Below, one piece after another: positions 23,922-30,759 of a stretch of DNA of 64,000 nt (positions are counted from its first letter, which is position 1; each line of letters starts with the position of its first letter). The stretch comes from Bacillota bacterium. Lineage in GTDB: Bacteria; Bacillota; Negativicutes; Sporomusales; CTSoil-080. The notes beneath the pieces were generated by a model, which was given only the letters and a program-made list of their open reading frames with translations, searched no databases and was not told where the DNA came from. The DNA lies in NCBI GenBank assembly GCA_017889635.1, contig JAGGAC010000001.1:186001-250000 (forward strand), written 5' to 3'. The position numbers were made by a program, and so were the translations under genes.

Positions 23922-24203
23922 ATGGGTGAAAACCAAATTCAAGTACCGATGGACGCATTTTTAGAGATTATAAAAGGGCAGGCCAGGATAGAGGCAAAGT
24001 TAGATGCTCATATCGGTACAGAGTCTACCATTGATGCAAGAGTTTTGGCGTTAGAAACTGATAATAACAAGTCAAAAGGTGGAGTGAAGATGCTTACCTG
24101 GTTGATACCTGTTTTATCCGGTTCGGCAGCAATAGTCGGAACGGCGATAACCTATACTGTTACAGTTGGAAAATATATTGAACAGTTTCAACATCTAAAA
24201 TAA
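23922..24203 (+). CDS. XhlA-like lysis accessory membrane protein
   Basis: A 93-residue protein with a cytoplasmic coiled N-terminus (FLEIIKGQARIEAKLDAHIGTE..., DARVLALETDNN). One C-terminal membrane segment follows (LTWLIPVLSGSAAIVGTAITYTV). This is the layout of haemolysin XhlA, which works with a holin in phage-induced lysis. The ribosome site is GGGGAGGGTGAGGG. It is followed at once by the holin-like gene and the endolysin. Confidence 0.7.
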   Translation: MGENQIQVPMDAFLEIIKGQARIEAKLDAHIGTESTIDARVLALETDNNKSKGGVKMLTWLIPVLSGSAAIVGTAITYTVTVGKYIEQFQHLK

Positions 24204-24215
24204 TGAGGTGAGCGC

Positions 24216-24401
24216 ATGAACATTATTGATAATCACAGATTACTGCCAACAGCCTTCGCTATCTTGTATGTCGTGGCGTGGCTGGCGAATCAGTTAGGAT
24301 ATACGCAGCTAGACCTGGAAAAGTTGTGGGCGCTGGGTGTATATGTACTTGGCAAGTATGGGGCTGATTCGCTCTGGAACACGCCGAAAGGGAGTATGTA
24401 A
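24216..24401 (+). CDS. Small holin-like membrane protein
   Basis: A 61-residue protein with one membrane segment (LLPTAFAILYVVAWLANQLGY). The C-terminal half LWALGVYVLGKYGADSLWNTPKGSM resembles small holin-like proteins of Firmicute phages. It sits between XhlA-like and endolysin genes, the usual holin position. Having one clear membrane helix instead of two or three leaves some doubt. Confidence 0.6.
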   Translation: MNIIDNHRLLPTAFAILYVVAWLANQLGYTQLDLEKLWALGVYVLGKYGADSLWNTPKGSM

Positions 24402-24402
24402 A

Positions 24403-24960
24403 ATGCGAGTAGTATGTGACCCTGGTCATGCTGGGCGTACTGTTGACCCCGGCGCGATAAATCAAAATTCTGGTTTGCAGGAGGCTGACATTGCCCTGGT
24501 GGTTAGCAGACTGGTTAAACAATACTTAGAAGCGGCTGGCTGTGAAGTTAAACTGACCCGTGACGCGTGGGAAGATCCCAAAACTGATGAATTAAGTTAT
24601 CGAACATCTGTAGCCAACGAGTGGGGCACAGATGTTTTTGTTTCACTGCACTGTAATTCAGCAATCAGCGAAGAGGCAAAGGGCTTTGAGGTATGGACTT
24701 CGCCAGGGCAAACCGATGGCGACAATTTAGCTGGCTACATTTATAGCCAAATTCGTAACACCTTTCCTGATCGGCAAGGGCGCGGATTAAGAGAGGCTAA
24801 TTTTTATGTATTAACTCATACTAACGCCCCGGCCTGTCTGGTGGAAATGGCGTTTATCAGTAATGACGAAGAGGCACAGCTATTGTCTACGCCATCATGG
24901 CAGGAACAAATGGCGAGGGCAATTGCTAGGGGCGTGACCGATTATGCAAGCAGAGTTTAA
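24403..24960 (+). CDS. Endolysin: N-acetylmuramoyl-L-alanine amidase (Amidase_3)
   Basis: A 185-residue protein from ATG 24403. The full Amidase_3 zinc site is visible: His in CDPGHAG, Glu in LQEADIAL, His in VSLHCNS, and the catalytic Glu in VEMAFISN. There is no signal peptide and no wall-binding domain, so it needs the holin to reach the wall. It cleaves the amide bond between MurNAc and L-Ala. Confidence 0.92.
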   Translation: MRVVCDPGHAGRTVDPGAINQNSGLQEADIALVVSRLVKQYLEAAGCEVKLTRDAWEDPKTDELSYRTSVANEWGTDVFVSLHCNSAISEEAKGFEVWTSPGQTDGDNLAGYIYSQIRNTFPDRQGRGLREANFYVLTHTNAPACLVEMAFISNDEEAQLLSTPSWQEQMARAIARGVTDYASRV

Positions 24961-25036
24961 TAAGCAAAGTATTTGGCCACTGTTATCAAAACAGATGGCT
25001 ATTTATTTTAATAAAATTAAAGGAGTGTGTTCATTT

Positions 25037-25576
25037 ATGTCTGATGAAACCACAGTAACGACAACCGAGGAAACCACTGCCACGGAGGCAACCGATACCA
25101 CAGAAGCGACTGAAACTGCTACTGAAACTACTGCAACCGATACAACTACAACGGAGGAAACGACTGATACTACTACCGATGCTGATACTACAACGGAAAC
25201 TGAATCAACAGATGATTCAACTGATACTTCTACCGATTCAACTACCGATAGTTCTACTGATTCAACCGAAACCACGACCACAACCGATACTACAACCGAG
25301 GAGGAATCTACTGTGTCTGATATTACTGATACCGCTACCGAGGCCGCAGAAGCCGCCGTTATTACGAGTATAGTAACCACTACTACATCTACTACCACGG
25401 ATATTGCTGATAGTATTACAGCAAAAGTAAAGGAGCTTACTGCTGAAATCTCTACTACAAAGAGTCTTTGGGTTAAGACTCGTAATTCTATTGAAATAGC
25501 GGCTATGACTGGTGCATTGGCTGGCCTTGTCGCCGGGTTAAAGGAAGGTTTAGAAGATTTAAAAGACAAGATTTAA
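25037..25576 (+). CDS. Thr/Asp/Glu/Ser-rich low-complexity protein
   Basis: A 179-residue protein from ATG 25037 (AAAGGAGTGTG). Residues 2-110 are nearly pure Thr, Glu, Asp, Ser and Ala in irregular TETATD/STDS-type repeats, very acidic and presumably unfolded. The last 70 residues form helices, ending in IAAMTGALAGLVAGLKEGLEDLKDKI, which may be amphipathic or membrane-associated. It lies between endolysin and a papain-like hydrolase and has its own terminator. No family is recognised. Confidence 0.65.
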   Translation: MSDETTVTTTEETTATEATDTTEATETATETTATDTTTTEETTDTTTDADTTTETESTDDSTDTSTDSTTDSSTDSTETTTTTDTTTEEESTVSDITDTATEAAEAAVITSIVTTTTSTTTDIADSITAKVKELTAEISTTKSLWVKTRNSIEIAAMTGALAGLVAGLKEGLEDLKDKI

Positions 25577-25582
25577 GGTGCT

Positions 25583-25610
25583 GGCCCGGTCTTTGATCGG
25601 GCCTTTTTTC
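25583..25610 (+). terminator. Terminator after the Thr-rich gene
   Basis: GGCCCG (25583-25588) pairs with CGGGCC (25598-25603), followed by six T residues. Confidence 0.85.
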
Positions 25611-25636
25611 TATATATGGGGAGGTGCATATATATA

Positions 25637-26098
25637 ATGAAGGTAAATGTTTTATTCTCATATCCAGAAACGGTATTTGGTCGCATAATCGATGCCGTTG
25701 AAGGCCCAGGAGCAGACCCAAGCCACGCCGCTATATTTATGCTTGATGGAATTTTAGAGGCATTAGACAACGGTTTTGTTAAGTCACCACTTACCGCCTA
25801 TGATGGTCACAAGACGACTATTATCACTGTCGATGTGCCTGACATAGACGATGCAGAACTAGAAGCAAAGCGGCTTTTGAATACACCTTATGGCTGGATT
25901 GATTGTATAAATGGTGGATTGCGTGAAATTACAGGCCAGCAGATTCCCGGCGATGGTGAGGTAACAGTAAACTGTTCTGAGGCTGTGGCGCGGATACTGA
26001 GGGCTGGGGGCTTAGATGTATTGCCGGGGGTATATGCTGACGGGATTACTCCTGCGGCATTGTTAGATGCTTTACAGCCGTTGGCGGTGGCAGCATGA
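25637..26098 (+). CDS. Permuted papain-like amidase/peptidase (YiiX/YebB-like)
   Basis: A 153-residue protein from ATG 25637, with GGGGAGGTG ten bases upstream. The permuted papain layout is visible: SHAAIFM near residue 33 provides the histidine. NTPYGWIDCINGG follows, and then NCSEAVARILRAGG provides the likely catalytic cysteine. Such enzymes hydrolyse amide bonds in peptides, peptidoglycan or lipids. Similar genes occur near phage lysis cassettes. The substrate is unknown. Confidence 0.7.
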   Translation: MKVNVLFSYPETVFGRIIDAVEGPGADPSHAAIFMLDGILEALDNGFVKSPLTAYDGHKTTIITVDVPDIDDAELEAKRLLNTPYGWIDCINGGLREITGQQIPGDGEVTVNCSEAVARILRAGGLDVLPGVYADGITPAALLDALQPLAVAA

Positions 26099-26184
26099 AG
26101 ATTTCAATTCCTGACTTCAAATTTACGATAAAAATACCTTGGCTGTCGAAGTGGTTGTTTGACAGAAAAGTTAAAGGGAAATAG
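26095..26184 (+). CDS. 29-residue basic phage peptide
   Basis: A frame starting in an ATGA overlap with the papain-like gene encodes MKISIPDFKFTIKIPWLSK and a KGK end. It is basic and amphipathic. The overlap suggests coupled translation; otherwise unsupported. Confidence 0.35.
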   Translation: MKISIPDFKFTIKIPWLSKWLFDRKVKGK

Positions 26185-26187
26185 CAT

Positions 26188-26227
26188 CGCAGAATAGAAT
26201 ATCGTAATTTAACATTATATTTCTGCG
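26188..26227. promoter_or_regulatory. Inverted repeat upstream of the XRE gene (operator candidate)
   Basis: CGCAGAA (26188-26194) and TTCTGCG (26221-26227) flank an A+T-rich centre, just before the XRE gene. It could be an operator for that protein or a hairpin ending the upstream operon; there is no T-tract, so an operator is a little more likely. Confidence 0.35.
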
Positions 26228-26237
26228 GCGGTGGGCT

Positions 26238-26438
26238 ATGCTAAAAAATAAACTAAAAAGTTTTCGACATAAATATGAAATGAATCAACTAGAATTTGCT
26301 GCTTTTCTTGGCGTTAACAAATCGCTGTACAACAGGTGGGAACGGCAACAGGGGCAACCAAATAGTGTGTCGATGATTAAATTAGCTAAAAAACTAGGGT
26401 GTAAAATAGATGACCTCTTCGAAGAAGTTCCGGATTAA
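26238..26438 (+). CDS. XRE/Cro-type DNA-binding regulator
   Basis: A 66-residue single-domain helix-turn-helix protein (LKSFRHKYEMNQLEFAAFLGVNKSLYNRWE..., MIKLAKKLGCKIDDLFEE). Size and sequence fit the Cro/XRE family. It heads the plasmid-like module and probably controls it. Its stop lies inside a terminator stem. Confidence 0.85.
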   Translation: MLKNKLKSFRHKYEMNQLEFAAFLGVNKSLYNRWERQQGQPNSVSMIKLAKKLGCKIDDLFEEVPD

Positions 26439-26456
26439 TCTCCGGGACTTTTTATT
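26427..26456 (+). terminator. Terminator overlapping the XRE gene end
   Basis: GTTCCGG (26427-26433) pairs with CCGGGAC (26442-26448, one G-T pair), followed by TTTTTATTT. The stop codon is in the loop. Confidence 0.65.
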
Positions 26457-26458
26457 TA

Positions 26459-26511
26459 TATAAATATACGCAAGACAGGCAATTTATGCCGTATATGTGC
26501 GTATATTTATA
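26459..26511. repeat. Large nested inverted repeat upstream of the FtsK-like gene
   Basis: TATAAATATACGCA (26459-26472) and TGCGTATATTTATA (26498-26511) are a perfect 14-base inverted repeat. Inside is a second small palindrome, GGCA-ATTTA-TGCC. The sequence ATATACGCA plus AGAC recurs with one extra A at 28330-28343. Such structures are typical of replication or nicking origins and of operators. The neighbouring ATPase and relaxation-like genes make an origin-type site attractive. Confidence 0.5.
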
Positions 26512-26536
26512 AAAACTGGAAGGAGGTGTACATACG

Positions 26537-27748
26537 TTGAATATACTAACCGAAATAAAAAACGATATACGGGCCGTTATTATGCCTATGCTTGGCAGGG
26601 ATATTCCCCTTGCTGTAATTGAAACTATAGAAGCGTTGTGGGCCGAAGAAAAACGGCCACAGATACATGCGAAGAAAAGAACGTCAACCGGATATACGTT
26701 TACTATTGCGCTGCCGCCAGGAATTAGCTTTAAGGACTTTTACAGTAAATTAGATTATTTTAAGGATTCTGCTGGCGGCAATAAGGTTAATACTTCAATT
26801 GTGCAAGCTGGCAAAATGGCTGTTTTGCAGATAAGCACTAATCTATTAGGCAATTATTTTGAGTATCCCCGTGACTATCCGCTAAAAGGCATTTTGCCGG
26901 TGCCGATCGGCTACAGTACAAACGGGTTACAGGTAATCGACATTGCTACTTTGCCACATCTGCTAGTTGGTGGCACAACCGGCGCGGGGAAAAGTAATGC
27001 TATACATGTGATAGTCAATTCACTACTGAGATTGCCAGAGCCACCACTAATAATTTTGATTGATTTAAAAATGTCGGAATACAACTACTTAGAAAATCAG
27101 GTATTGCTCGTCACCGACATTGATACGGCGTGTCAAGCATTGGCGAGACTTGTCCAGGAAATGCGGCAACGACAACTACTATTAAAAAAATCTCGTTGCG
27201 TTGATATAAAAAAATATAATCGGCACAGCAAAATGCAGTACATAGTTCTGGTGATTGACGAACTGGCCGAATTAAAGGATAAAGATGCCCAGGAAGATTT
27301 AGAAACATTGCTCCGCTTGTGCCGAGCGTCAGGCATTTGCATTGTTGCAGCTACTCAGCGTCCATCATCAAAAATATTCCTGTCTAAGTCTTTCGGTGAT
27401 GCAAAGGCGAACTTTTCCGGGCGGCTATGCTATCAGACAATATCAGATGTTGACAGCCGGATTATCCTAGATTCGGGCGAAGGTGCAACATTGCCAGCTA
27501 TTCCAGGCCGCGCATATTTGCGGATCGGCAGAGAGATTACCGAAATACAAACGCCATATTTGGACCCGGAGGAGGTGCAATATGTCGATAAATTTCCGGC
27601 GGCAGGGTTACCAACGGAACTCCCGACTAATCGAGACGTTGAAGGAATGGGGAGTGCTGGACACTCAGCAAATACAGGTGCTAATATTTCCATCGTCGCG
27701 AGTCACCCAGCGAAGGCTGAGGGCTTTGACAGAAAGCGGACGGATTAA
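26537..27748 (+). CDS. FtsK/SpoIIIE-type DNA translocase ATPase
   Basis: A 403-residue protein with TTG start behind GGAAGGAGGTG. Walker A GGTTGAGKSNA is near residue 150 and Walker B VLVIDELAELKD near 240. Sensor-like IVAATQRPSSKIF and NFSGRLCYQT follow. There are no membrane segments, unlike chromosomal FtsK. Such soluble members drive conjugative transfer (ConQ/TcpA type) or replicon handling in plasmids and some phages. The last 55 residues are encoded by DNA shared with the next gene in another frame. Confidence 0.85.
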   Translation: MNILTEIKNDIRAVIMPMLGRDIPLAVIETIEALWAEEKRPQIHAKKRTSTGYTFTIALPPGISFKDFYSKLDYFKDSAGGNKVNTSIVQAGKMAVLQISTNLLGNYFEYPRDYPLKGILPVPIGYSTNGLQVIDIATLPHLLVGGTTGAGKSNAIHVIVNSLLRLPEPPLIILIDLKMSEYNYLENQVLLVTDIDTACQALARLVQEMRQRQLLLKKSRCVDIKKYNRHSKMQYIVLVIDELAELKDKDAQEDLETLLRLCRASGICIVAATQRPSSKIFLSKSFGDAKANFSGRLCYQTISDVDSRIILDSGEGATLPAIPGRAYLRIGREITEIQTPYLDPEEVQYVDKFPAAGLPTELPTNRDVEGMGSAGHSANTGANISIVASHPAKAEGFDRKRTD

Positions 27749-28040
27749 ACGAAGCACTCAGACCTTGCCATATTTCTACTACATTGAGCCAGTAGCTAAT
27801 CCCCTGCGGCGTATAGCAATAAACTGGGCTAGACTATGGCTTTTGAAACAATCAAAAAGCTGGGAGCGTATAACAATTGATTATCAAACTAGCACTTGTA
27901 CGGTCGCTAATACTATCACCGGCGTGGAAAGACAAATTTATATAGTCGAGAGAGGTTTTAAATTACCGGGTGATAATGTGCTGGTTATTAGCGATGACGC
28001 GGTAAATAATTGGCGGGAGGCAGTATTATGCGAAAAATAG
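27582..28040 (+). CDS. Replication-relaxation-like winged-helix protein
   Basis: A 152-residue protein. ATG 27582 follows GGAGGAGGTGCAAT, a very strong site lying inside the FtsK-like gene, so the two overlap by 167 bases in different frames. The N-terminal winged helix (LIETLKEWGVLDTQQIQVLIF...TQRRLRALTESGRIKR) matches the plasmid replication-relaxation family, but the protein is shorter than usual. It probably binds DNA at the origin-like repeat. Confidence 0.7.
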   Translation: MSINFRRQGYQRNSRLIETLKEWGVLDTQQIQVLIFPSSRVTQRRLRALTESGRIKRSTQTLPYFYYIEPVANPLRRIAINWARLWLLKQSKSWERITIDYQTSTCTVANTITGVERQIYIVERGFKLPGDNVLVISDDAVNNWREAVLCEK

Positions 28041-28321
28041 TAGGACTGTTCGCTTGGTGTATTCCATCCGTCAGTCATGCCGCCGGTTTACAGGATTTAA
28101 TTACCGGGGCAAGCCCTGACGCAAAATACTATGTCTATGGTGTGCTTGCTATATTTGCGGTGTGCATTGTTGGCAAGGCTGGCGGGTTGATCTTATCAGG
28201 TTTTGGTGATGGCCGTGGTGGACGGTTAATGAGCAATGGTAGTTACTTGGCAGCAATCGGGATATTTATGTCTTTGGCACTTATGCTGTTTAAACAGTTT
28301 TGCACGATGGTCGTTGGATAG
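28028..28321 (+). CDS. Small secreted two-helix membrane protein (pilin/coat-like)
   Basis: A 97-residue protein from ATG 28028 (GGCGGGAGGCAG). It has a signal peptide ending SVSHA|AG. Two membrane helices follow (YYVYGVLAIFAVCIVGKAGGLILSGF and YLAAIGIFMSLALMLFKQF), joined by a glycine/arginine loop. This topology and size match VirB2/TrbC pilins and some filamentous-phage coat proteins, but no sequence signature proves either. It overlaps the preceding gene by 13 bases and so belongs to the same operon. Confidence 0.6.
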   Translation: MRKIVGLFAWCIPSVSHAAGLQDLITGASPDAKYYVYGVLAIFAVCIVGKAGGLILSGFGDGRGGRLMSNGSYLAAIGIFMSLALMLFKQFCTMVVG

Positions 28322-28330
28322 TTCGGCTGA

Positions 28331-28348
28331 TATACGCAAAGACGTATA
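28331..28348. repeat. Small palindrome TATACG-N6-CGTATA
   Basis: This palindrome follows the pilin-like gene. It repeats the ATATACGCA core of the larger inverted repeat at 26459-26511. It could be a second binding site for the same protein. Confidence 0.4.
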
Positions 28349-28433
28349 AAAACAAGCTTTGATAATTGAGGTTATGGTGGCGATCTTGATTAGAAACAGG
28401 GTTACGGTTAGTATATAATTAGGAGGGATTTAT

Positions 28434-28637
28434 ATGGAAAAAATTCGCGAACTATTAAATGAGGCGGCACAGGTTTGCGAAGAATCAGGAATTCCATTTT
28501 TGGCGGCTTATGGAATTGATAAAATTTCTGTTGTTGAGTTTACCCCACCGGGGACACCGGAGCGATTGAAGAAGACAAAAGTCACTTTGATGATGGGAGC
28601 GAAACAGGTTCGCCGAAATGTGGAAATACAAGATTGA
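28434..28637 (+). CDS. Small phage/plasmid-like protein, unknown function
   Basis: A 67-residue protein with ribosome site TTAGGAGGG. A weak promoter lies upstream (TTAGAA at 28390, 18-base spacer, TATAAT at 28414). It has a helical N-terminus (KIRELLNEAAQVCEESG), then beta strands. It is the last intact gene before the broken host gene. Confidence 0.55.
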   Translation: MEKIRELLNEAAQVCEESGIPFLAAYGIDKISVVEFTPPGTPERLKKTKVTLMMGAKQVRRNVEIQD

Positions 28638-28704
28638 GTATCTAAATTGGTCACGAAGCTAATGGGATAGCGATAATTCAGCACTTCTTTACGTGTGGTT
28701 TTGT

Positions 28705-29170
28705 TCACGGCGCATTCGTACCATGTATGCCGTAGGCGTCGTAGTTGAGCCCAAGCCAGCGGCTTCCTAGTACACCACCGGGATTAATGATTTTGGTGGC
28801 GATTGAACGGAGTGTTGCCGTTAAATAAGGTAAGCTGACGTGTTGATTTGGTGATCAGTAGATTAGCGCGTTGAACGGTTTGGGGTTTCTTTGGTTTGGA
28901 GATTGTTGGTATCTGAGTGACGGCGGCTTTATGTAGCCGGCAGTAGGTAATAGGCGTAAGTTCACCGGTTGCCGACAGGCCGTTGGCCTCTTGAAAGCGG
29001 TTTACTGCTTCTATGGTATTGGCGTCATAAAAACCATGGGGGGCGGAGTGGTATAGACCTTGTTCGGTCAGTAATTTTTGGATTTCACCGATTAGTGTAT
29101 GACGGTCATTTTCGGTGAAGTTGACAACAGACAGCCGACGGTACGGCAGGTGAATTATTCTGATTTGCAT
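28705..29170 (-). pseudogene. L,D-transpeptidase with peptidoglycan-binding domain (broken)
   Basis: Reverse-strand reading starts at ATG 29170 (AGAAGG upstream). It has a peptidoglycan-binding domain (LTEQGLYHSAPHGFYDANTIEAVNRFQEANGLS), then the beginning of a YkuD domain (LLITKSTRQLTLFNGN). The frame then stops at 28784. In another frame the YkuD domain resumes as IATKIINPGGVLGSRWLGLNYDAYGIHGTNAP and ends at 28705, where the Trp of NAPW should be. The TPTP segment between the parts is missing, and so is the catalytic SxGCxRM part. It is an internal deletion with frameshift plus loss of the 3' end at the prophage side. Confidence 0.8.
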
Positions 29171-29389
29171 TTGGTCAACCTTCTTCCGATTTTTAGATAC
29201 TAGAGCTAAACCATTATATGCCCGAGATAGCGATAGTGTTTTTAGCAAAACTGCATAATAGCGCTAAGCATGGGAAAAATATGAAAAGTGGTGGTTTCCC
29301 AACTTTGAAAAATTTGCCTAAATAGTGGCAGGCAAATATCCCTGCATGTAGAATATTAAAAATATCAATACTGCATGCGGGGTGTTTTT

Positions 29390-29875
29390 ATGCAAGAAGT
29401 AGAATCCATCAACGAATTGCAATTGGTGGTTTTTTCTTTAGCTACTGAAGAATATGGTTTGCTGATAACTAAGGTACAGGAAATAAATCGCATAGTTCCA
29501 ATAACAAAGTTGCCGCAAACTCCGAATTTTATGGAAGGTATTATTAATCTTCGCGGACGGGTTATTCCAATAATAGATCTGAGAAAGCGCTTTCAGTTAA
29601 AGGTATCTGATTATGATGAAGATACACGGATTATTATTGTTGAGGTTGCTGGTCAGACGGTAGGGGTTATTGTAGATGCCGTGACTGAGGTTGTCTGCTT
29701 ATCTAAAGCACTTGTTGAACCGCCGCCGCCTAGTTTTATTTTGGATGCTGAATATGTTGATGGTATTGGCAAATTTGATGAGCGATTGCTTATCCTTTTA
29801 AATATTGATAAAATACTGACAAGTCAGGAAGAAATTATTTTAAAACAGTTTCGGCAGAATGGAGAACCGGGTTGA
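29390..29875 (+). CDS. cheW: Chemotaxis coupling protein CheW
   Basis: A 161-residue single-domain protein. The start is at ATG 29390 behind GCGGGGTG. CheW hallmarks are clear: LVVFSLATEEYGLLITKVQEI, the strongly conserved NFMEGIINLRGRVIPIIDLRKRF, and VGVIVDAVTEV. It bridges CheA and chemoreceptors at the inner membrane. It lies upstream of ispE with a four-base overlap, an unusual partner, so co-transcription may be only positional. Confidence 0.92.
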   Translation: MQEVESINELQLVVFSLATEEYGLLITKVQEINRIVPITKLPQTPNFMEGIINLRGRVIPIIDLRKRFQLKVSDYDEDTRIIIVEVAGQTVGVIVDAVTEVVCLSKALVEPPPPSFILDAEYVDGIGKFDERLLILLNIDKILTSQEEIILKQFRQNGEPG

Positions 29876-30759
29876 TTATTGAAGCAAACGCAAAAATAAA
29901 TTTAGCTCTGGATATTCTTCATAAGCGTGCTGATGGTTACCACGAAGTGGAAATGGTTATGCAGACAGTTGCCTTAGCTGATGAGGTAGGTCTGTATGAA
30001 GAACCGGAAGGAATAATTGTTGAGACTAATATTCCTGGTTTGGATTCTGGCCCGTCGAATTTGGCCTATCGTGCTGCAAGTCTTGTTATAAAAACATATG
30101 GGGTGCGCCGAGGGGTGAGGATTATCCTGAATAAGCGCATTCCTATGGCTGCCGGGTTGGCTGGTGGTAGCTCTGACGCAGCTGCTGTGCTAAAAGGCTT
30201 AAATAGGTTATGGAGTCTAGGACTATCTTTGGGTGAACTAGAGAAACTTGGGGCAACGCTGGGATCCGATGTGCCGTTTTGCTTAAATGGCGGAACTATG
30301 TTGGCAACTGGACGGGGGGAAGTATTATCGCCACTGACCTTTTTGCCGCATATATGGGTTGTGCTGGCAAAACCACCAGTTGATGTGTCGACTGGGTGGG
30401 TATACAATAATTACAGCCCTGCATCGGTCAGTGTGCGCCCAGATATTCAGGGAATGGTTGAGTGTTTAGCAACCAGGGATTTTATAGGCATTGCCGGACG
30501 GATGGGCAATGTTTTGGAGTCAGTGACGATAGCGGCTCATCCAGAGATTGCTGAATTGAAGAAGGTTATGTATGAAAATGGTGCTGTAGCAAGTATGATG
30601 TCTGGTAGTGGACCTACAGTTTTTGGTTTGACTACCGATCGTGAGCAAGCATGTTCTGTTGCTGAGGCGATTAGACGTCAGAGTGATGCCTGGGTTATTG
30701 TTACAGAGACTGTTGATTCGGGTGGAGGGGAAATATGGAACGCCGGTTGTCGCCCATAA
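29872..30759 (+). CDS. ispE: 4-diphosphocytidyl-2-C-methyl-D-erythritol kinase
   Basis: A 295-residue GHMP kinase of normal length. Its TTG start overlaps the cheW stop. The N-terminus AKINLALDILHKRADGYHEVEMVMQTV, the ATP loop PMAAGLAGGSSDAAAVLKGLN and the late MMSGSGPTVFGL are diagnostic. It phosphorylates CDP-ME in the non-mevalonate isoprenoid pathway. It overlaps the following gntR gene by 25 bases. Confidence 0.96.
   Translation: MIIEANAKINLALDILHKRADGYHEVEMVMQTVALADEVGLYEEPEGIIVETNIPGLDSGPSNLAYRAASLVIKTYGVRRGVRIILNKRIPMAAGLAGGSSDAAAVLKGLNRLWSLGLSLGELEKLGATLGSDVPFCLNGGTMLATGRGEVLSPLTFLPHIWVVLAKPPVDVSTGWVYNNYSPASVSVRPDIQGMVECLATRDFIGIAGRMGNVLESVTIAAHPEIAELKKVMYENGAVASMMSGSGPTVFGLTTDREQACSVAEAIRRQSDAWVIVTETVDSGGGEIWNAGCRP

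Follow-up and report, generated by a model that had tools for sequence, protein, structure and literature searches.

The window, a 64,000-nucleotide stretch of a Bacillota genome, holds at positions 26238–28321 a short cassette of four genes, for an XRE regulator, a soluble ATPase of the FtsK type, a Replic_Relax-like protein with a winged helix, and a two-helix protein with a signal peptide (Table 1). The last three genes form a tight rightward operon, and the XRE gene lies ahead of it. The surrounding element is a podovirus-type prophage that looks complete and is chromosomal, with genes for a serine recombinase, a CI-like repressor, a DnaB helicase, a terminase, a head-tail connector, an SLT-domain protein and an amidase. 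Lysis genes lie on one side of the cassette and the host boundary on the other, host genes beginning again at about 28.8–29.4 kb. The fifth small gene had no significant match in Pfam. A preliminary description of this DNA had listed the regulator, a repeat, the ATPase, the Replic_Relax-like protein and the two-helix protein, and all of them are present where it placed them. It had also entertained a hitchhiking mini-element, which we set aside: no integrase, replication initiator or flanking repeats belonging to the cassette itself were found. The 12-bp sequence TTGAGTATCTAA occurs as a direct repeat at L028:4364 and at window position 28634 and would enclose a prophage of 44,270 bp; we place no weight on it, as it lies inside a HipA-like gene and, by our estimate, about 0.1 matches of this kind are expected by chance.

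Table 1. Features of the cassette and its immediate surroundings in the window.
Feature	Position	Strand	Evidence or remark
Phage gene, 153 aa, directly downstream of the lysis genes	25637..26098	+	138/153 residues identical in the C20 prophage
XRE/Cro-type regulator, 66 aa	26238..26438	+	HTH_3 8.9e-10
Inverted repeat TTTATATAAATATACGCA ... TGCGTATATTTATAAAAA, upstream of ftsK	26455..26515	.	Arms 18 nt, 94% complementary
FtsK/TcpA-like dsDNA translocase-type ATPase, 403 aa	26537..27748	+	FtsK_SpoIIIE (Pfam) 6.5e-21; phrog_1358 3.6e-63
Winged-helix Replic_Relax (MOBC-like) family protein, 152 aa, degenerate PD-(D/E)XK domain	27582..28040	+	PF13814 1.1e-4
97-aa protein, predicted signal peptide (SHA|A) and two-helix membrane hairpin with short basic loop	28028..28321	+	Sequence, AF2
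Candidate operator half-site, second copy ATATACGCAAAGACGTATAAAAAC	28330..28353	.	71% match to 26493-26516; lies 5' of the fifth gene
Fifth small gene, encoding a 67-aa protein	28434..28637	+	Adjoins the module also in L014 and L037

In the ATPase, the phrog_1358 match spans residues 37–348, covering the motor and an upstream domain, and the Walker A (G146..GKS153) and Walker B (D241 E242) motifs are invariant in the family alignment. The protein has no membrane segment, and the build of chromosomal FtsK/SpoIIIE, with an N-terminal membrane domain and a C-terminal gamma domain in one chain, is absent, the Pfam matches all lying within the motor region; the genome also has a longer FtsK-type frame (724 aa, C118), which is a separate gene. 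Among solved structures, the family profile best matched TcpA of the Clostridium perfringens plasmid pCW3 (6o1w–6o1z; 6o1z at 1e-51 over profile positions 65–348), with FtsK (2ius, 9e-45) and an EssC-type FtsK/SpoIIIE protein ranking below it. Judged by these profile comparisons, the motor is nearest to the conjugation motor TcpA, with FtsK next; the TraB model NF041214 matches weakly (4.8e-8, 32 bits against a cut-off of 800). TcpA is itself FtsK-like and a proposed mover of dsDNA (PMC12857230), but the window ATPase lacks its N-terminal membrane helices and the surroundings contain no Tcp conjugation genes. The ftsK and Replic_Relax genes overlap by 167 nt. The ftsK C-terminal extension (27582–27748, about 55 codons) consists entirely of another frame of the winged-helix coding region, and overlaps of about 139–172 nt between the two genes also occur in L012, L013, L014, L016, L037 and L039.

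The partner protein scored 22.8 bits against PF13814, just under the cut-off of 25.3; 30 of 31 aligned relatives match the same profile at E up to 0.5. This profile represents the MOBC relaxases (PMC5357655; PMC12857230). The pattern D...E-x-(D/Q/E)...K (Asp, Glu and at least one Lys) is kept in 21 of the 31 aligned members. The other ten, which form the window clade (window, L012–L014, L016, L037–L039, L059 and L060), have all lost the Asp and the Lys, and only L038 and L059 among them retain the Glu. For a full-length relative, L056, the AF2 model (pLDDT 95) consists of a winged helix resembling Z-alpha domains (Z 8.7) and a second domain, and the matches reaching into the latter include PD-(D/E)XK nucleases: the nicking enzyme Nt.BspD6I (Z 7.4 over 139 residues), Can2, MunI and Shedu. 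These nuclease-fold scores are middling, no Foldseek E-value being below 0.001, and agree with the published MOBC assignment (PMC12857230); a search of PDB sequences with the Replic_Relax profile gave nothing useful. The full-length sister proteins share with MOBC relaxases both the conserved pattern and, in the models, the combination of winged helix and PD-(D/E)XK-like domain, whereas the window clade lacks the active-site residues and the window protein is shorter (152 aa against about 180–258 aa). As these residues are lost in the window protein and nine relatives, the partner is expected, on its sequence, to bind DNA without cutting it.

The helices of the two-helix protein fall at residues 2–27, 31–58 and 62–96 of its AF2 model, and the start of its gene overlaps the Replic_Relax stop by 13 nt. 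The earlier likening to VirB2/TrbC holds for the topology, as signal peptide and two helices are common to those pilins and the window protein, but not for family membership: no profile match to TrbC (PF04956) or T4SS_pilin was found at E up to 1. SpoIIIAC shares the two-helix hairpin with a short loop and likewise gave no match. The preliminary description had named holin membership as one outcome that would speak against it, and holin profiles in Pfam and PHROGs gave no match; its suggestion of an inovirus coat was rejected, with no match among PHROGs and Pfam profiles. Foldseek and VIA lists returned generic helical matches and no VirB2 pilin, and are uninformative for a two-helix protein. 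Profile comparison relates the protein to the hairpins of sister modules (hhalign probability 84%, E 8e-6), a type of score that membrane composition inflates. Two partners elsewhere did match such profiles, that of L022 genuinely to SpoIIIAC (3.9e-13) and that of phage Jayan weakly to T4SS_pilin (3.7e-4).

Among phage repressors, the XRE protein most resembles the RstR/CI type (NF041951 phage_RstR, 1.1e-9, below the cut-off of that model). The inverted repeat that follows its gene was equalled in strength by none of 300 dinucleotide shuffles, and the locus L015 has a repeat of different sequence at the same place, equalled by 3 of 300. In six other relatives the repeat upstream of ftsK was not significant, so that six of the eight loci tested were no better than chance. 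The repeat is probably the operator/promoter of the XRE protein, a candidate assignment made on modest evidence. The repeat noted earlier is real, but its origin-like label was rejected: the cassette has no initiator gene, the repeat sits where an XRE operator is expected, and the occurrence of another sequence at this position in L015 fits an operator co-varying with the XRE protein better than an origin. The L015 cassette itself is decayed, with a short Replic_Relax gene and no hairpin gene.

The genome carries two further copies. A different, HK97/siphovirus-type prophage on contig C20 holds a second cassette whose FtsK is 49% identical to that of the window, though the near-identical 153-aa gene of the lysis region adjoins it too. 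The third, on contig C28, is a decayed remnant; it preserves the start and end of the XRE gene with the middle deleted (L009:10675-10781), and an operator-like TATATACGCA is present. A scan of a collection of genome contigs for close relatives gave a single distant match.

We pooled three scans and the genome loci into a set of 61 distinct loci with the FtsK–Replic_Relax pair and used 72 FtsK relatives without the pair as controls. At 51 of the 61 pair loci a small protein containing at least two hydrophobic stretches is encoded next door, as against 8 of the 72 controls (Fisher p 4e-18); these counts indicate linkage rather than exact frequencies, as they come from a simple hydrophobicity rule and metagenome-rich collections. 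The linkage is kept despite a change of order, the hairpin gene being upstream in the Bacillus types and downstream in the window. In viral contigs, the FtsK relatives divide cleanly by the presence or absence of a Replic_Relax gene at the 3' end, and the distances of the two proteins are strongly correlated (Mantel r 0.905, 0 of 2000 permutations). In a reciprocal search through 398 genomes of the phylum, the Replic_Relax profile matched 13, the genome studied here among them. FtsK was adjacent in all ten loci of the same type with usable upstream sequence (L116–L125, one being the C20 copy); of the remaining matches, L126 and L127 end at contig edges and L128 adjoins a different ATPase fragment, VirD4-like by eye. 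All four genes have pN/pS of 0.17–0.39, indicating purifying selection, with synonymous sites near saturation. The cassette is a real module and not a chance pile-up, recurring in dozens of unrelated viruses. The strong co-occurrence across unrelated phages and genomes, assessed by a test set beforehand, bears out the shared module of the preliminary description; of its readings, a phage-plasmid maintenance module and a DNA-export device are both candidates.

The combination had been called unrecognised, and this did not hold, as it is already on record and therefore not a new kind of system. Two Bacillus phages carry TrbC/VirB2, Replic_Relax and FtsK genes interpreted as former plasmid functions (PMC9658697), and a similar plasmid-like block combines a replication-relaxation protein with ParM and a protein of the T4SS type (PMC9703825); the FtsK-like protein is found in 24 of 93 Bacillus phages (PMC4197329). 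In GBSV1 (gp40-44) and SpaA1 (P25-P28) the block sits between endolysin and integrase. The Bacillus/Geobacillus block (GBSV1, SpaA1, Novomoskovsk, Bolokhovo) has the gene pair, an HTH gene and a small neighbour protein in common with the window, but the window FtsK is only about 25% identical, its partner lacks the nuclease core, and its hairpin gene is downstream and has a signal peptide. What this case adds is a definition of the module by statistics, the placing of its motor next to TcpA, a clade with a dead relaxase, the family of hairpin proteins, an extension by M23 peptidases, and a host genome in which neither VirB4 nor VirD4 exceeds the cut-off. Phages of Firmicutes commonly carry the pair, and its annotation goes back years, but we found in the literature no tested function for it and no experimental test of any cassette member.

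The M23 peptidase genes lie directly 3' of the hairpin gene in L040, L043, L045, L047, L062, L208 (=L117) and L215 (=L125). These seven sister operons compare with none of the 72 controls having such a gene nearby. The encoded proteins are two membrane helices fused to Peptidase_M23 (1e-26 to 1e-34 for the four compared with Pfam), and L053 has a small protein, wall-hydrolase-like by eye, in the same place. The membrane partner and the wall peptidase thereby join the parts list of the module. Wall peptidases are typical of DNA-transfer machines that cross the envelope, and ParM is typical of plasmid maintenance. By phmmer with a narrow query set, which makes the counts lower bounds, we found ParM within 1 kb of 4 of 36 modules and 0 of 39 controls, integrases near 12 of 36 and 1 of 39, and lysis genes upstream in 17 of 36 and 0 of 39. 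The ParM and M23 queries found nothing in the window prophage. A ParM-like gene adjoins the cassette upstream of ftsK in L031:9899-10849, from a related genome, and in L059, with phage amidase genes close by. Small genes that look ribbon-helix-helix-like by eye lie directly upstream of ftsK in L117:158-376, L118:203-391, L123:3222-3467 and L008:6935-7129; those of L118 and L123 had no Pfam match, and the window has no such gene.

From the observed gene content and order, conservation, co-occurrence, family placement and the loss of the nuclease site in the clade, we infer an accessory cassette of temperate phages that would act as a membrane-tethered, sequence-guided dsDNA translocase for the phage's own DNA when it is off the chromosome, a reading to which we give about even confidence. 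The winged-helix protein would bind a site in the phage DNA and load the FtsK/TcpA-like ATPase ring, serving as both reader and loader in the way that FtsK-gamma and the TraB winged helix serve their own motors. The two-helix protein would anchor the ring at the inner membrane, or form a passage across it, so that the complex could use ATP hydrolysis to pull dsDNA towards or across the membrane, at the division septum or at a cell contact. The XRE protein would hold the operon low via the inverted repeat. The pair linkage, the correlated distances, the reciprocal search, purifying selection, the position of the motor next to TcpA and then FtsK, the seven M23 operons and the ParM neighbours all favour the translocase. 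Against it, the window prophage is chromosomal with a serine recombinase and gave empty ParM and M23 queries, so that neither a plasmid state nor transfer is seen directly; the parallel with FtsK-gamma is one of fold class (FtsK_gamma, E 0.23), winged helices being common; and the pair is also found in Bacillus phage Jayan, where the stretch viewed has no integrase, a poor fit to maintenance.

The translocase could serve plasmid-prophage maintenance only, the excised circle segregating at division or sporulation by septal pumping or anchoring, often with ParM/ParR, and without transfer. This is the published reading for Bacillus phages (PMC9658697, PMC9703825, PMC7685451), and the occurrence of ParM near modules and not near controls agrees with it. 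We hold it as a tentative possibility, as ParM is rare among the modules, integrases lie near a third of them (12/36), the window prophage has its own recombinase, and septal segregation needs neither the signal peptides of the hairpins nor the M23 peptidases of the sister operons.

The same peptidases and hairpin proteins favour mobilisation or self-transfer, in which a TcpA-like coupling protein and a MOBC-like relaxase export the phage DNA, alone, like TraB or TdtA, or via a resident system. The nearness of the motor to TcpA and the identity of PF13814 with the MOBC family (PMC5357655, PMC12857230) point the same way, and the MOBC-like gene of L128 adjoins the fragment that looks VirD4-type by eye. 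The loss of the active site in 10 of 10 aligned members of the window clade makes this unlikely for the cassette, and the lack of any AAA_10 (VirB4-type) match over the cut-off and of any TraG-D_C match in the host genome, a 152-contig draft, makes the route via a resident conjugation system improbable in this host. The naturally relaxase-dead clade separates models with a motor and a reader from those that nick and transfer.

In a bolder version, which we consider quite unlikely, tailed phages would be spreading a minimal machine for dsDNA transfer that does without VirB4 and moves the prophage genome straight into a neighbouring cell, with no particles made. Its parts would be the motor, the DNA reader and the membrane hairpins, joined in the sister lineages by an anchored wall peptidase; the window lineage would work without nicking. 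In Streptomyces plasmids, TraB is a lone FtsK/HerA-like motor that exports DNA without a full type IV secretion system. TdtA of Thermus is described in the same terms (PMC5365140), and both may share the proposed working principle with the cassette, by analogy only. Should the transfer reading prove true, a second, particle-free route between cells would be open to temperate phages.

The cassette could instead be a moron directed at other DNA and serving superinfection exclusion or anti-phage defence, in which a HerA/FtsK-like ATPase, a DNA-binding partner and a membrane protein stop incoming DNA. It does sit in the usual moron position with its own regulator, and PADLOC SspH and mad8 match the ATPase at about 1e-20. 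The latter is generic FtsK-type similarity, on which we rejected a known defence system; PADLOC defence models match neither the hairpin protein nor the partner, whose degenerate nuclease domain makes it a poor candidate for an effector, and the sister M23 peptidases do not fit, which leaves the moron very unlikely. It is highly improbable that the 97-aa protein is a holin of the adjoining lysis region with no tie to the FtsK pair, as its size, two-helix build, closeness to lysis genes and the weak match of one sister hairpin to Phage_holin_4_1 (0.04) are set against its overlap with the Replic_Relax stop, a linkage to the pair that survives changes of order, and the small hydrophobic genes that the lysis region already has upstream.

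Two observations concern the flanks of the cassette. A non-coding stretch 3' of the hairpin gene (window 28310–28430) is conserved with L014 and L016 (gtataaaaacaagct ... aaacagggtt.cggta), and the operator half-site alone does not account for it; Rfam gave no structural RNA match across window positions 24000–30000. At the other end, two separate loci carry immediately upstream of the cassette a gene that looks Ku-like by eye: L012:8022-8834, found as the same locus in genome G016, and L015:7970-8776.
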